Positions 6,908 to 59,716 of a DNA stretch of 64,000 nt are shown in pieces. The position numbers and the translations under genes are program-made. Origin of the DNA: Acidobacteriota bacterium (GTDB taxonomy: Bacteria; Acidobacteriota; Terriglobia; UBA7540); the NCBI GenBank assembly GCA_021787735.1, contig JAJYLL010000002.1, positions 1-64,000 of the forward strand, given 5' to 3'. Each line of letters opens with the position of its first letter. Within the stretch, counting starts at the first letter, position 1. The notes beneath the pieces are model-generated. The model searched no databases, was not told where the DNA came from, and saw only the letters and a list, made by a program, of their open reading frames with translations.

Positions 6908-9652
6908 TCAATGCTCGGGCCGGAAGCGCCAGATGTGAGCTCCGAGGGGATCAGCGGTCGCCAGGATACTGCCGTCGCTCGCCCAAGCAGCACAAAAGAT
7001 ATCACCAGAGTAGTTCAGCGGAAGTCGAGTCAATTTGCCGGTGGCAAGGTAGAGGACCCCGAGCCCCCAAAACCAAGAATCACTTGGTGCTATGTTCACG
7101 AGCAGCTTGCCTTCCTTATTGATGGCGTTCGGGCCTAATGGGACCGGGCTTACGGCAAAATCACTTTTCACATGAATAGGCTGCAAGATGCCGTCAGGAA
7201 GGAGGACCCGTTCGAGGCGCACGTGTTCCTCTTCGTTCAGATTTACAACCAGGGAGCGTCCGTCTGGAGCAACGGCCACGCCGTCGCCGGCGCATATCTG
7301 GCGAGGGGTCCCTCCCTGGCTGGGAACGACCCAGACATTCCCTGCAGCCACGTAATAGATTTCTTGACCGTCAGGGGATGCTGCAACTGCAGCGATCTGC
7401 ATCCCTTCCGTCGCTTTGAATCGATGGAGTATGTCTCCGTTTCTCACCGAGGCAACAGCGAGCGCCTGCGCCGGCCCGCTCCCTGCCATGAGCGCAACTT
7501 CATCGTTCCCAACGCGAGCTATCGGCGGTGCCGACTCCTCAGCGGTCTGAAGTAAAGAGACAAAATTCCCACCTGGCTTGCCCAGCAACAGGCGGGGTCG
7601 GCCTGACAAAAAAGTGGGGAGGAGAAATTTCCCGTCAGAAAACTCAACGGGTGCCACGGGCCCATTAGCCAAAAGGTAGGATTCCACGTTTGCCAGCACC
7701 ACCGGCGTTCCTCCGGATGCCGGGAATCTCAGTACCTCCAGTGGGCGGCTGACCTGATCGACATAGAGGTTCCCGTCGGGCGCAACATCCAGCGCCCAGG
7801 GTGCCGAAGTCAGTGTCAGCAGGGTCCGGAAGGAATTTTGACCCGAAATGGGGATCTCAACAATTCGATGCAGATTACCGGAGGGAAGGTCAATCAGTAC
7901 AGACCGGCCACCCGGTGCCACTGCCAGCGGGAATAACTGAGCCGACTGCGTGATCGGCAAATCTGGCGCCAGCCGCCGCGTTTTGCCGGTAGCGATATCC
8001 AGCAGATAAAGGTGAGGGGAATTTTGAGGCTTTCCCTTGGCGGTTCCGAAAAACACGGCACCTTTTCCATCTGGGAGAACCCGTATGGCTGCGGAAGGAT
8101 TGAGATTCACCCAGGCTTCCATAGGCTGAAGGCTCCCAGTACCGGGCCAATAATGAAAAATCTCATAATTACGGTTGGGATCTACCCGCACAACCAGCAT
8201 AGAGCCATCGGGCAAGAGCTCGGGGCTAGCCGCGTTGCTCAAGACCAGCCTTTGTTCGCCGCCGAGGCTTGAAACCGAGTAGATCCCGACAGGTTGAGGA
8301 TTGACCCGGTCAAAATAGATCGTAGAGCCGTCTTGCGACCAACAGAGACTTGCAACCGGGCCATGAGTCCGGTCCTGAGTCAGCACCGTCCAGTTACCGG
8401 ACCTGGGATCCATCACGGCAACCTGTGTCTGGTTGTCAACCATGGCCTCAAAAGCAATCAAATGTCCGTCCGGGGAGACTCGCGGCCAGAAAGCAATCGC
8501 TGGCCCGGGCAATAGCTCTCCCGACCAGGCAGACGGGGAAGCAACACTCCGAGTTCCGAGCCACCATCCTGACAAAGCCGCCACGCAAATCAAGATTCCA
8601 GCGATGATCCAAGGCAGGGCGCGGCGTAGCGGCGACACCCTCACCCGGTCCCGCTCCTCGGGACCACCCTCTCCCGGCGGGAGAGGGCTTGGGAGTATGG
8701 TGGAACCGCTGAGCGTTTCTTCAATCGTAATGCGTGCCTCGCCGATGGCTTGCAGGCGCTGCTTCGGGTCCTTGATCAGGCAGCGGCGGACGAGACGTTG
8801 AATCGACGGCGGGGTTGTGTCCGGTATCGCTGACCAATCCGGTTCGGTCTTGATCACGGACGCAAGAACTTCGGAAATTGTTTGGCCCTCGAATGGCTTC
8901 CGCCCCGAAAGCATCTCGTAAAGCACGCAGCCGAATGCCCAGATGTCTGTCCGGCGGTCCACTCGCTGGCCCTTGGCCTGCTCCGGGCTCATGTACGCCG
9001 CCGTGCCCAGAATCACTCCCGCCTGCGTCGCCATCGCGCTCAGCGTGGGCGAGTTCGCCATGTCCATCGTGGCCGTGGAATCGTGTGGGTCCAGAACCTT
9101 GGCAAGACCGAAATCCAGCACCTTTACCGTACCCTCCGGAGTGATATTCACATTCGCCGGCTTCAGGTCGCGATGAATCACGCCGCGTTCGTGCGCGTAT
9201 TCCAAAGCTTCGGCAATCTGTTTGGCGATGGGCAGGGCCTCGTCTGTGGCCATAAGCGAACGTCGTTCGCCTGTTGCAGTGCCGGTGTCCTCACCGGCGG
9301 CCTTCCTCTCTGGAAAACCGCCCGGCGGTCGGGACACCGCCGCTACAGAAATCCGTTCCCCCAGCGTCTGGCCTTCCACCAATTCCATCACCAGCGCCCG
9401 GACGTCTTTTGAATCTTCAAGGCCATAGATCGCAGCAATGTTGGGATGGTTGAGAGACGCGAGCACCTGCGCTTCACGCTCGAAACGCGCCATGCGCTGA
9501 GCATCGCGGGCCATCGTCTCAGGAAGGATTTTCAGAGCGACGTCCCTCTGGAGTTTGGTGTCGCGAGCACGGTACACCTCACCCATGCCCCCCGTACCAA
9601 GCGGCGACATGATCTCGTAAGCCCCGAGTCGCGTCCCCTGTTGAAGTGCCAT
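6908..9652 (-). CDS. Membrane Ser/Thr protein kinase with propeller, carrying in-frame palindromic inserts
   Basis: 914 residues. The kinase domain has its Gly-rich loop at 19-25, Lys41, HRDLKPAN at 160-167 and DFG at 180-182; a transmembrane helix lies at about 348-365, followed by a propeller-like C-terminal region. Two stretches are unlike normal family members. Residues 103-132, between the hinge (MELVEGQTLGERI) and the helix that leads to HRD, form a Pro/Gly/charged insert encoded by a palindromic DNA element. Residues about 320-339, in the linker ahead of the membrane helix, are encoded by a second pair of DNA hairpins. Both inserts keep the frame and the catalytic residues remain, so I infer a working kinase. 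The ATG lies only 11 bases behind a perfect TATAAT. It is the first gene of the kinase operon. Confidence 0.92.
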   Translation of the reverse strand: MALQQGTRLGAYEIMSPLGTGGMGEVYRARDTKLQRDVALKILPETMARDAQRMARFEREAQVLASLNHPNIAAIYGLEDSKDVRALVMELVEGQTLGERISVAAVSRPPGGFPERKAAGEDTGTATGERRSLMATDEALPIAKQIAEALEYAHERGVIHRDLKPANVNITPEGTVKVLDFGLAKVLDPHDSTATMDMANSPTLSAMATQAGVILGTAAYMSPEQAKGQRVDRRTDIWAFGCVLYEMLSGRKPFEGQTISEVLASVIKTEPDWSAIPDTTPPSIQRLVRRCLIKDPKQRLQAIGEARITIEETLSGSTILPSPLPPGEGGPEERDRVRVSPLRRALPWIIAGILICVAALSGWWLGTRSVASPSAWSGELLPGPAIAFWPRVSPDGHLIAFEAMVDNQTQVAVMDPRSGNWTVLTQDRTHGPVASLCWSQDGSTIYFDRVNPQPVGIYSVSSLGGEQRLVLSNAASPELLPDGSMLVVRVDPNRNYEIFHYWPGTGSLQPMEAWVNLNPSAAIRVLPDGKGAVFFGTAKGKPQNSPHLYLLDIATGKTRRLAPDLPITQSAQLFPLAVAPGGRSVLIDLPSGNLHRIVEIPISGQNSFRTLLTLTSAPWALDVAPDGNLYVDQVSRPLEVLRFPASGGTPVVLANVESYLLANGPVAPVEFSDGKFLLPTFLSGRPRLLLGKPGGNFVSLLQTAEESAPPIARVGNDEVALMAGSGPAQALAVASVRNGDILHRFKATEGMQIAAVAASPDGQEIYYVAAGNVWVVPSQGGTPRQICAGDGVAVAPDGRSLVVNLNEEEHVRLERVLLPDGILQPIHVKSDFAVSPVPLGPNAINKEGKLLVNIAPSDSWFWGLGVLYLATGKLTRLPLNYSGDIFCAAWASDGSILATADPLGAHIWRFRPEH
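8636..8693. repeat. Double-hairpin dispersed repeat inside the kinase gene (linker)
   Basis: Two adjacent perfect hairpins: GGTCCCG (8647-8653) with CGGGACC (8659-8665), and CCCTCTCCC (8667-8675) with GGGAGAGGG (8679-8687) around a 3-base loop. The layout resembles the CTCTCCC..GGGAGAG dispersed palindromes common between genes in many bacteria. Here it is translated in frame as the Pro/Gly/Glu-rich stretch before the transmembrane helix. Confidence 0.7.
9256..9347. repeat. Palindromic element inserted in the kinase catalytic domain
   Basis: Imperfect inverted repeat with arms of about 35 bases. One arm ends GGTCGGGACACCGCCGCTAC (up to 9346) and the other begins GTTGCAGTGCCGGTGTCCTC (9273). 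It is flanked by the perfect palindrome GCGAACG-T-CGTTCGC (9256-9270). It encodes residues 103-132 of the kinase in frame. A similar GTAGCG..CGCTAC element lies between genes at 59670-59716. Confidence 0.7.
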
Positions 9653-10618: not shown

Positions 10619-12256
10619 ATGGCAAAGAGAGTCAATCCGGACAAGCGGAACTCCGGCGCGCTGGAGGAGCGGCAGGCAAAGTTCACCACCCTCTCGGGCG
10701 TCCCGGTTGAGCCGCTTTACACGGAAGATGACCTCAAAGATTTCACCTATCAGCGCGACCTGGGCGATCCGGGCGAATTCCCATACACGCGCGGTATCCA
10801 CCGCACAATGTATCGCGGCAAGCTCTGGACGATGCGCCAGTTTTCCGGCTTTGGAAGTCCGGAAGACACTAACCAGCGCCTCCATTACCTGCTGAAGCAG
10901 GGACAAACAGGCCTCTCCATCGCTTTTGACTTGCCCACTCTGATGGGCTATGACTCCGACCACCCACTTGCGGAAGGGGAGGTCGGCAAGTGCGGCGTCG
11001 CCGTTTCATCGCTTGCAGACATGGAAACGCTGCTCGCCGGGTTGCCGCTTGAGCGTGTGACCACATCGATGACCATCAATTCCCCGGCGGCCATGATCTG
11101 GGCCATGTACCTGGTGTCAGCGGAAAAGAGCGGCGCCAACCGGAAGCACATTTCCGGTACTATCCAGAATGATATTCTGAAGGAATACATCGCGCAGAAA
11201 GAATACATCTTCCCTCCTGCGCCTTCGATGCGCCTCGTCGTGGATTCCATCACCTTCAGTGCCCGCGAGACGCCGCGCTGGAACCCGATCTCCATCAGTG
11301 GCTACCACATCCGGGAGGCCGGCTCCACGGCCGTGCAGGAACTGGCCTTTACACTGCGCGACGGAATTGAATACGTTGATTGGGTTCGGAAAGCAGGCCT
11401 CGACGTTGACGACTTTGCTCCCCGGCTCAGTTTCTTTTTCAATTCCCACAACGATCTTTTTGAGGAAATCGCCAAGTTCCGTGCGGCGCGCAAAATCTGG
11501 GCCACGGTGATGCGCAACCGTTATGCGGCAAAGAATCCCCGTTCCTGGATCTGCCGGTTCCACACGCAGACGGCCGGCTGCTCGCTGACTGCGCAGCAGC
11601 CTTACAACAACGTCGTGCGAACAGCCATCCAGGCGCTTGCGGGCGTGCTGGGCGGAACACAGTCGCTGCACACAAACTCGCTGGACGAGGCATGGGCTCT
11701 GCCTACCGAGCACGCCGTGACCATAGCCCTGCGCACTCAGCAGGTGATCGCCCATGAGAGCGGCGTGGCCAACATGGCTGATCCGCTGGGAGGTTCGTAC
11801 TTCCTCGAACGGCTCACGCTCGATACGGAACGCGCCTGCTACGAATACTTCGACAAGATCGATGGTCTAGGCGGCATGGTATCCGCCATCGAGAAGGGCT
11901 TCCCGCAAAAAGAGATTCACGAAGCCGCATACGCCTACCAGCGGGCCGTCGAAAACAGAGAAAAGATTATTGTGGGCGTTAATGATTTCGTTACCGAGGA
12001 AGAGCGTCCCGTTGATATCCTGGTAATCGACGAAGGCGTTGCGCGCCGCCAGCGTGAAAAACTGGCAGGGCTGAGGGAGAAACGCGATAACGCGCGTGTT
12101 CGGCAAACGCTTGAGGCCCTTGGTGCCGCTGCCGCAACAGACCAGAACCTGATGCCCTTTATACTGGAATCTGTGCGCACGTACGCGACGCTGGGAGAAA
12201 TGTGCGACGTACTCCGCAAAGTTTTTGGGACCTACGAAGAGCCGGCATTTCGATAA
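10619..12256 (+). CDS. B12-dependent acyl-CoA mutase large subunit, isobutyryl-CoA mutase-like
   Basis: 545-residue substrate-binding TIM-barrel subunit of a two-protein adenosylcobalamin mutase; the cobalamin-binding subunit follows after 16 bases. Family blocks are clear: TMRQFSGFG (71-79), [13 protein letters not shown] (95-107), [10 protein letters not shown] and [10 protein letters not shown]. By length and by the split arrangement it resembles IcmA/HcmA and archaeal-type MCM large subunits. Substrate-determining positions point away from methylmalonyl-CoA: the residue equal to Tyr89 of propionibacterial MCM is Phe75, and the residue equal to Arg207 is Gln193 (in [10 protein letters not shown]). 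Phe and Gln are the pair found in isobutyryl-CoA mutase. The position that is Asp in 2-hydroxyisobutyryl-CoA mutase is Ala102 here. Automatic annotation would say methylmalonyl-CoA mutase; I prefer a branched or straight C4/C5 acyl-CoA. Confidence 0.88.
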
Positions 12257-12272
12257 ACAGGACTTCTGACTC

Positions 12273-12677
12273 ATGATCGATCGACGAATTCGCGTGGTTG
12301 TTGCCAAGCCGGGCCTGGACGGGCACGACCGGGGCGCCAAGATTGTGGCCCGCGCGCTGCGGGACGCCGGCATGGAAGTGATTTATACCGGGCTACGCCA
12401 GACGCCGGAACAGATTACAAACGCCGCCGTGCAGGAAGATGTGGACGTGGTCGGAATCTCCATCCTGTCCGGCGCGCACAACACGATTGTTCCCCGCATC
12501 TGCCAGTTTTTGCGCGACGCTGGAATGCAGGAAGTTCTTGTAATCGTAGGCGGCATCGTTCCTGATGAAGATATCCCTAAACTGAAAGAAGCAGGGGTCT
12601 CTGCTGTATTTCAGCCGGGCGCATCCACGCAGGAGATTGTGGATTTCATCCTGACCCACGTGAAGCAGACGGAATAG
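12273..12677 (+). CDS. Cobalamin-binding small subunit of acyl-CoA mutase
   Basis: 134-residue B12-binding domain protein. It has the DGHDRGAK motif (residues 16-23; Asp-x-His-x-x-Gly) whose His ligates cobalt from below, plus the SILSGAH and VGGIVP blocks that surround the nucleotide tail of cobalamin. Length and sequence match IcmB/HcmB and stand-alone MCM C-terminal domain proteins. It must pair with the large subunit encoded immediately upstream, with which it shares an operon. An AGGAC ribosome site lies ahead of the ATG. Confidence 0.93.
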
Positions 12678-59669: not shown

Positions 59670-59716
59670 GTAGCGCCGCGCCCCGCGGTGTCTGCCGTCC
59701 GGACGGCGGCGCTACG
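59670..59716. repeat. GTAGCG..CGCTAC palindromic repeat
   Basis: Perfect 10-base arms GTAGCGCCGC and GCGGCGCTAC enclose a second palindrome, CCGTCCGGACGG. It resembles the element inside the kinase gene (9273-9346) in its ends and GC-rich arms, suggesting a family of dispersed repeats. No transposase is nearby. Confidence 0.65.

Follow-up and report, generated by a model that had tools for sequence, protein, structure and literature searches.

Unrelated GTAG-type REP dimers recur in frame in surface loops of Hanks-type kinases from one acidobacterial family

Main

How does a palindromic, mobile-like repeat come to be translated inside the catalytic domain of a protein kinase? The question is raised by a gene in the window (the whole stretch of 64,000 nucleotides analysed here), in which the initial annotation had noticed an imperfect 74-base inverted repeat and a 15-base palindrome that jointly encode residues 103-132 of a Hanks-type kinase, an observation that we confirm. 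A REP or BIME dimer is defined as a GTAG-footed, GC-rich hairpin together with its inverted copy (PMC3733652, PMC8266576), and the 74-base element is a member of this known kind.

Results

A palindromic element is translated within a kinase domain

The host gene encodes a Pkinase domain (PF00069, E 6.5e-53) and, C-terminal to it, a PD40 propeller, as identified by Pfam search (Table 1). Read on the minus strand from 9346 to 9273, the 74-nt element (GTAGCGGCGGTGTCCCGACCGCCGGGCGGTTTTCCAGAGAGGAAGGCCGCCGGTGAGGACACCGGCACTGCAAC) is an imperfect palindrome with termini GTAGCGGCGGTGTCCCGACCGCC...GGTGAGGACACCGGCACTGCAAC, laid out as a GTAGCGGCGGTGTCC-hairpin, a linker (GGTTTTCC/GGAAGGCC) and an inverted hairpin ending in GCAAC, a decayed CTAC. 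Its single-stranded DNA fold reached z = -4.2, a value equalled by 0 of 200 dinucleotide shuffles; a repeat search at its default seed left the arms unreported because they are imperfect.

As had been claimed, the insert keeps the reading frame, and Lys41, HRD (160-162) and DFG (180-182) are all preserved in alignments. Alignment to PknB covers residues 11-102 and 136-310, two blocks separated by just 6 residues of PknB, and homologues in 30 related genomes mostly align to approximately residue 101-107 and resume at approximately 134, the insert being missing from most of them. AlphaFold2 gave the kinase core a pLDDT >90 and the insert ~50, between helices 97-106 and 136-155. The insert is thus predicted to form a disordered loop between helices alphaD and alphaE, directly after the hinge; the hinge-side position first described is next to the hinge but outside the hinge itself. 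Downstream of the domain, the further translated repeat folds strongly (-43 kcal/mol over 84 nt), and segments resembling it occur at three loci of relatives (L108, L076 and L142).

Table 1 Features of the host gene, its insert and a related intergenic dimer
Feature	Position	Strand	Basis
Host gene of the insert: Hanks-type Ser/Thr kinase, 914 aa, with a PD40 beta-propeller at the C terminus	6911..9652	-	Pfam, ORF call, dN/dS
REP dimer, 74-nt, GTAG-tagged, BIME/REPIN-like, ~residues 103-127	9273..9346	-	Sequence, fold, same REP elsewhere
Left REP unit, GTAG + CGGCGGTGTCCCGACCGCC hairpin	9324..9346	-	Identity to other copies
15-nt palindrome GCGAACGTCGTTCGC, residues 128-132, probable remnant of a second REP family	9256..9270	-	Sequence match
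HRD codons (9167-9175) and DFG codons (9107-9115), intact	9107..9175	-	Alignments
Another translated palindromic repeat (LPSPLPPGEGGPEERDRVRVSPLR), in the post-domain linker	8621..8704	-	Fold, similar DNA
REP dimer GTAG...CTAC, intergenic, related but different sequence	59670..59715	.	Hairpin search

The element is a GTAG REP dimer adjoining a second REP

In the left unit (9346-9324), GTAG and CGGCGGTGTCCCGACCGCC stand at the foot of an imperfect hairpin in the 20-50 nt range; the unit is paired with an inverted REP, and intact GTAG...CTAC dimers lie elsewhere in the window genome. Repetition is genome-wide and mainly extragenic, at a copy number that is low for a REP family. The same REP is present in another kinase of this genome (C124) and at two RAYT loci from the same bacterial family, L347 (G012) and L345 (G015), with 96% identity over the first 25 nt of the left unit to the copies in C124 and L345. 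Both loci are REPtrons, in which a cognate RAYT gene is flanked by the REP: L347 has dimers starting GTAGCGGCGGTGTCCTCACCGCCG at each end of the gene, and L345 has a linker (TTTTT...) and arms (GGTGTCC, GGACACC) like those of the window element. An intergenic repeat at 59670 had been proposed as a sister copy; a GTAG...CTAC hairpin dimer does lie there between genes, related in architecture, but its sequence is not a copy.

Five proteins of the window genome exceed the NCBIfam cut-off for REP-associated tyrosine transposase. The RAYT L430 (C59) has GTAGCGCAGAG-type REPs on both sides and represents the REPtron of another REP, and GTAG hairpins are absent from the flanks of L031, L032, L431 and L434; the cognate RAYT of the window REP was consequently not found in this draft genome. 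RAYTs have been shown in vitro, for other REPs, to cleave and transfer single-stranded hairpins, with a CT dinucleotide beside the REP as the cleavage site (PMC8266576). The window copy and 8 of the 27 kinase dimers described below have CT before GTAG, and AG follows CTAC in 10 of the 27.

The adjoining 15-nt palindrome (GGCGAACGACGTTCGC) matches the core of another REP, GGGCGAACGCCGTTCGCCCCTAC, at 15 of 16 bases. Of six genomes searched, three gave a total of 30 matches to GGGCGAACGCCGTTCGCCCCTAC at up to three mismatches; nine of these are in kinases, without exception in the alphaD-alphaE loop, and the only match in the window genome is in that loop of kinase C124. On these sequence matches, the window insert is best read as a REP dimer adjoining what remains of an older REP at that site.

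In-frame dimers recur among kinases of the window genome

Three of the eight kinases in the window genome carry in-frame REP dimers: the window kinase (C82), C98 and C124. The dimer of C98 occupies the alphaD-alphaE loop, as in the window kinase, and those of C124 are spread singly over four places: alphaD-alphaE loop, activation loop, alphaG region and post-domain linker. Genome-wide, we found approximately 13 GTAGCG-type dimers, five in kinases and the others intergenic or gene-terminal. Chance placement of 5 of 13 dimers in ~23 kb has a probability of 3e-9 (gene-wise, 3 of 11, 2e-5). A gapped pattern gave no more matches than its reversed control, so only matches with REP hairpins were counted; those at C43:16916, C54 and C121 have no REP hairpins and were dropped as chance.

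Two further features were noticed. The ECF-like sigma factor gene beside the REP-rich kinase (G000:C124 ~11869-12573; L012 2286-2990) has an apparent frameshift after RLVDI. At L035, L044 and L046, a longer intergenic, MITE-like element of ~125 nt with AGCAGGTTGCTGAAAAAG-type ends has a GTAG dimer inside it.

Kinases gather dimers across the bacterial family

Relatives were found by scanning contigs with a kinase alignment (a scan with the window kinase alone recovered none), and their stretches were searched with a structural scan for GTAG-hairpin...hairpin-CTAC, which returned zero dimers on shuffled sequence. ORFs were called crudely, by length, and the genomes are draft assemblies, many of them titled MAG, so kinase counts may be incomplete. 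The family includes Acidobacteria bacterium Ww59 (G018, by identity) and Terriglobia bacterium PFL43 (G010, by its activation-loop insert). Within it, 27 strict dimers fell in 127 kb of kinase ORF versus 2 in 359 kb of neighbouring ORFs (p 4e-14), a comparison internal to the same kinase-centred, non-random stretches; after removal by eye of shared paralogous copies, we estimate ~18 versus 2 (p 4e-9). Random stretches totalling 864 kb held 11 dimers, all of them intergenic or in small or terminal ORFs. Zero dimers were found in 28 kinases (71 kb) from other families of the class, and 79 loci from other named acidobacterial genomes, with 91 kinases, yielded two, both at L224, which matches one of the same-family genomes.

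Sampling of 47 sites in the REP-rich genome G039 placed REPs mainly in intergenic DNA or at ORF ends, with two in kinases, two in DUF7948/SBBP-type genes at a site common to both, and few elsewhere. With 2 of 47 sites in kinases, a preference for kinases over intergenic DNA was rejected; the preference is over other genes.

One REP family, GTAGGGGCGGGCCTTGTGCCCGCCC, is greatly expanded in two genomes of the bacterial family, with 81 matches in G039 and 30 in G040, is near-absent from the other genomes and would suit a study of active spread. A rare non-kinase host is a Clp-type ATPase of G018, with an in-frame REP dimer in its AAA_2 region (L117:7402-7467). DUF7948/SBBP-type proteins form a second recurrent host family: in at least two genomes, those at L391, L394 and L323 have a common site (YDFVVAPGADP...AI-L-VGAGLVPA) that is occupied by a GAGLVPA-type REP.

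Unrelated REPs occupy a few kinase loops

When placed on a profile of kinases that lack inserts, the 27 dimers fell without exception at four sites: the alphaD-alphaE loop (12), the post-domain linker (7), the activation loop (6) and the beta3-alphaC loop (2). The alphaG region of C124, from the window's own genome, is a fifth. Among 45 same-family kinases, at least 31 have a lengthened alphaD-alphaE loop, compared with none of 13 kinases from the other families of this class and 6 of 83 other acidobacterial kinases. Measured from hinge to HRD, the distance is 42 residues in 13 of 13 and 77 of 83 kinases of the latter two groups and 48-92 residues in at least 31 of the 45 (p 1e-14); 14 of the 45 are at baseline length, two of them mis-measured.

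The inserted peptides are unrelated to one another (VGAGLVPAQGRPQGAPLQ, VGARGARPxEGERRSPLP, GEGSALPREPKGLPY, PLTPSPSPQGRGWPAGPGEG, AVIPAQAGIQSGPGVDSRLRGGD and others), and more than five unrelated repeat families occupy the alphaD-alphaE loop in different genera. The closest orthologue, from the same genus (L079), carries a different REP at the site of the window insert, so the two have the position in common but not the element. Orthologues in many genera holding the same inserted protein sequence over different DNA, which would have spoken against a mobile element, were not what we saw: the site is common, and peptide and DNA both differ. Several REPs may also sit in one gene, as in C124 and in L111 and L112, with three each; the AlphaFold2 model of L112 retained a confident core, with its loops at low confidence.

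The alphaD-alphaE loops of L091, L082 and L182 hold AT-richer repeats (KLESRRSKLE, KTKLEIRNSKIG) that are not GTAG REPs, so the site takes other repeat classes. We also considered whether the native codons of the alphaD-alphaE loop offer a common DNA target (CCCCTAC-like) and rejected this, as native loops gave no consistent match. The insert displaces several native residues (AKGPIPI or similar), and the net loop gain from single dimers is 10-13 aa, below what dimers of 48-57 nt encode; native residues were therefore replaced as well, and this is not a clean insertion: the original event was either unclean or trimmed later. A near-identical strain lacking the insert was not found among the relatives, and the empty site is deduced from homologues only.

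Insert-carrying kinases look functional

Of the three reading phases of a GTAG dimer, two are open and one runs into TAG; the 27 kinase dimers are distributed 22/5/0 over these phases, with the TAG-in-frame phase unused. The dN/dS of the window kinase against its relatives is 0.15-0.20, and between insert-carrying domains it is 0.12-0.26 in nearly all pairs, with one pair at 0.40. These low ratios suggest that insert-carrying kinases are functional. Frame, catalytic motifs and dN/dS together indicate an in-frame element with no loss of host function, a trait of Rickettsia palindromic elements (RPEs).

A proposed course of REP insertion, tolerance and replacement

We are fairly confident that the window insert is a composite of two GTAG-type REPs in the alphaD-alphaE loop of a functional kinase, explained by RAYT spread, loop tolerance and REP replacement. 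An older REP, its remnant lying at 9256-9270, would first have held the site, where a dimer of another family (9273-9346) now adjoins it. By analogy with the biochemistry of other REPs, we infer that RAYT transposases spread dimers as single-stranded hairpins. Such dimers would land within or between genes and mostly end up between them, copies that break a protein being purged. Surface segments of kinases, chiefly the alphaD-alphaE loop, activation loop, post-domain linker and beta3-alphaC loop, would tolerate 10-50 extra residues; we propose that this tolerance, together with two of three frames being open, is why dimers survive there and in-frame copies remain in kinases. Recombination between repeats or paralogues might then swap one REP for another in place. 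Most likely, RAYTs drive the insertion and the inserts are tolerated, not selected for.

Homologous recombination could play a larger part, with few REP entries followed by gene conversion among kinase paralogues to the same site. An identical 48-nt REP is found in three G001 kinase paralogues whose dS is 0.35-0.54, which could reflect gene conversion or constraint instead of independent insertion, and one kinase pair is 98% identical in its left flank versus 83% in its right. The unrelated repeat families at the loop in different genera nevertheless require separate entries, and REPs at one site differ even within one genome, so that we regard this as a possible but doubtful main route. Spread by recombination is compatible with the preferred explanation, and both can hold. 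Selection offers another account, in which loops encoded by REPs, beside the hinge or within the activation loop, would vary how kinases are regulated or which partners they choose and would be retained for that reason. That inserts concentrate in regulatory segments of one signalling family, that single genes (C124, L111 and L112) hold several and that their hosts are under purifying selection would all fit; adaptive recruitment is nonetheless unlikely, given inserted peptides with no sequence common across families and no conservation between orthologues, their predicted disorder, and the part of the paralogues that has no insert (the 14 of 45 at baseline, two mis-measured).

Two simpler accounts fare far worse. 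A decaying pseudogene might gather repeats, and several do occur in one gene, but catalytic motifs are all intact, the frame is kept in every case and dN/dS stays at 0.12-0.26 in nearly all pairs; decay is very improbable and already largely refuted. Least credible is an ordinary low-complexity protein loop whose GC-rich codons are palindromic by chance: the fold z of -4.2, the zero dimers in shuffles and the matching DNA in non-coding and RAYT-flanking positions speak against it, despite a loop that is indeed flexible and GC-rich, and copies outside genes already refute it.

Discussion

The usual label for bacterial selfish repeats is extragenic; in the present case a single enzyme family gathers them in frame, repeatedly and from unrelated repeat families, in a few fixed loops. 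Nature has in effect screened, by insertion, the places at which a protein kinase can accommodate 10-50 foreign residues. The inserts also make testable the effect of REPs and RAYTs on proteins, and the question of neutrality or recruitment of such loops. A bolder reading, which we think has only a small chance of being right, is that REP insertion is a working source of new regulatory loops, in which RAYT-driven dimers repeatedly rewrite two loops, alphaD-alphaE and activation, within a kinase family that is expanding. If true, kinase paralogues would gain different regulation or partners from their REP loops.

The initial annotation had likened the insert to RPEs, and the recurrence in other kinases had escaped it. 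What stands of this is a palindromic, mobile-type element lying in frame and missing from most homologues, and RPEs are likewise palindromic repeats that survive in frame in protein-coding genes; the element is, however, better filed as a GTAG REP/BIME with RAYT. Intragenic repeats of R. conorii have been equated with RPE-4 and RPE-6, and RPE-1 is a longer palindromic insert (PMC3733652). Unlike RPEs, the elements here have GTAG heads and RAYTs, and, comparing RPEs by description, the GTAG head and RAYT link of the window element argue against RPE membership.

REPINs are reportedly mostly extragenic, whereas the elements here lie inside catalytic domains. The two are alike in having paired inverted REPs as the mobile unit and a link to RAYTs (PMC3116915).

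The closest likeness in coding sequence is with the GTAG REPs and BIMEs of Di Nocera et al. 2013, who described in-frame intragenic dimers of 20-30 aa, sometimes two per gene, in diverse hosts including many replication and repair genes, as well as different REPs at approximately the same recB site in two Xanthomonas species (PMC3733652). GTAG head, hairpin, inverted dimers and REP-flanked RAYT genes are common to both systems; what differs here, in Acidobacteriota, is that hosts are mainly Hanks kinases, with four recurrent sites and several unrelated REP families at one loop across genera. We found no paper in the open-licence literature on REPs in acidobacterial kinases. An in-frame REP within a gene thus has precedent, whereas the repeated occupation of one enzyme family's loops by multiple REP families is, as far as this literature shows, undescribed and appears new.
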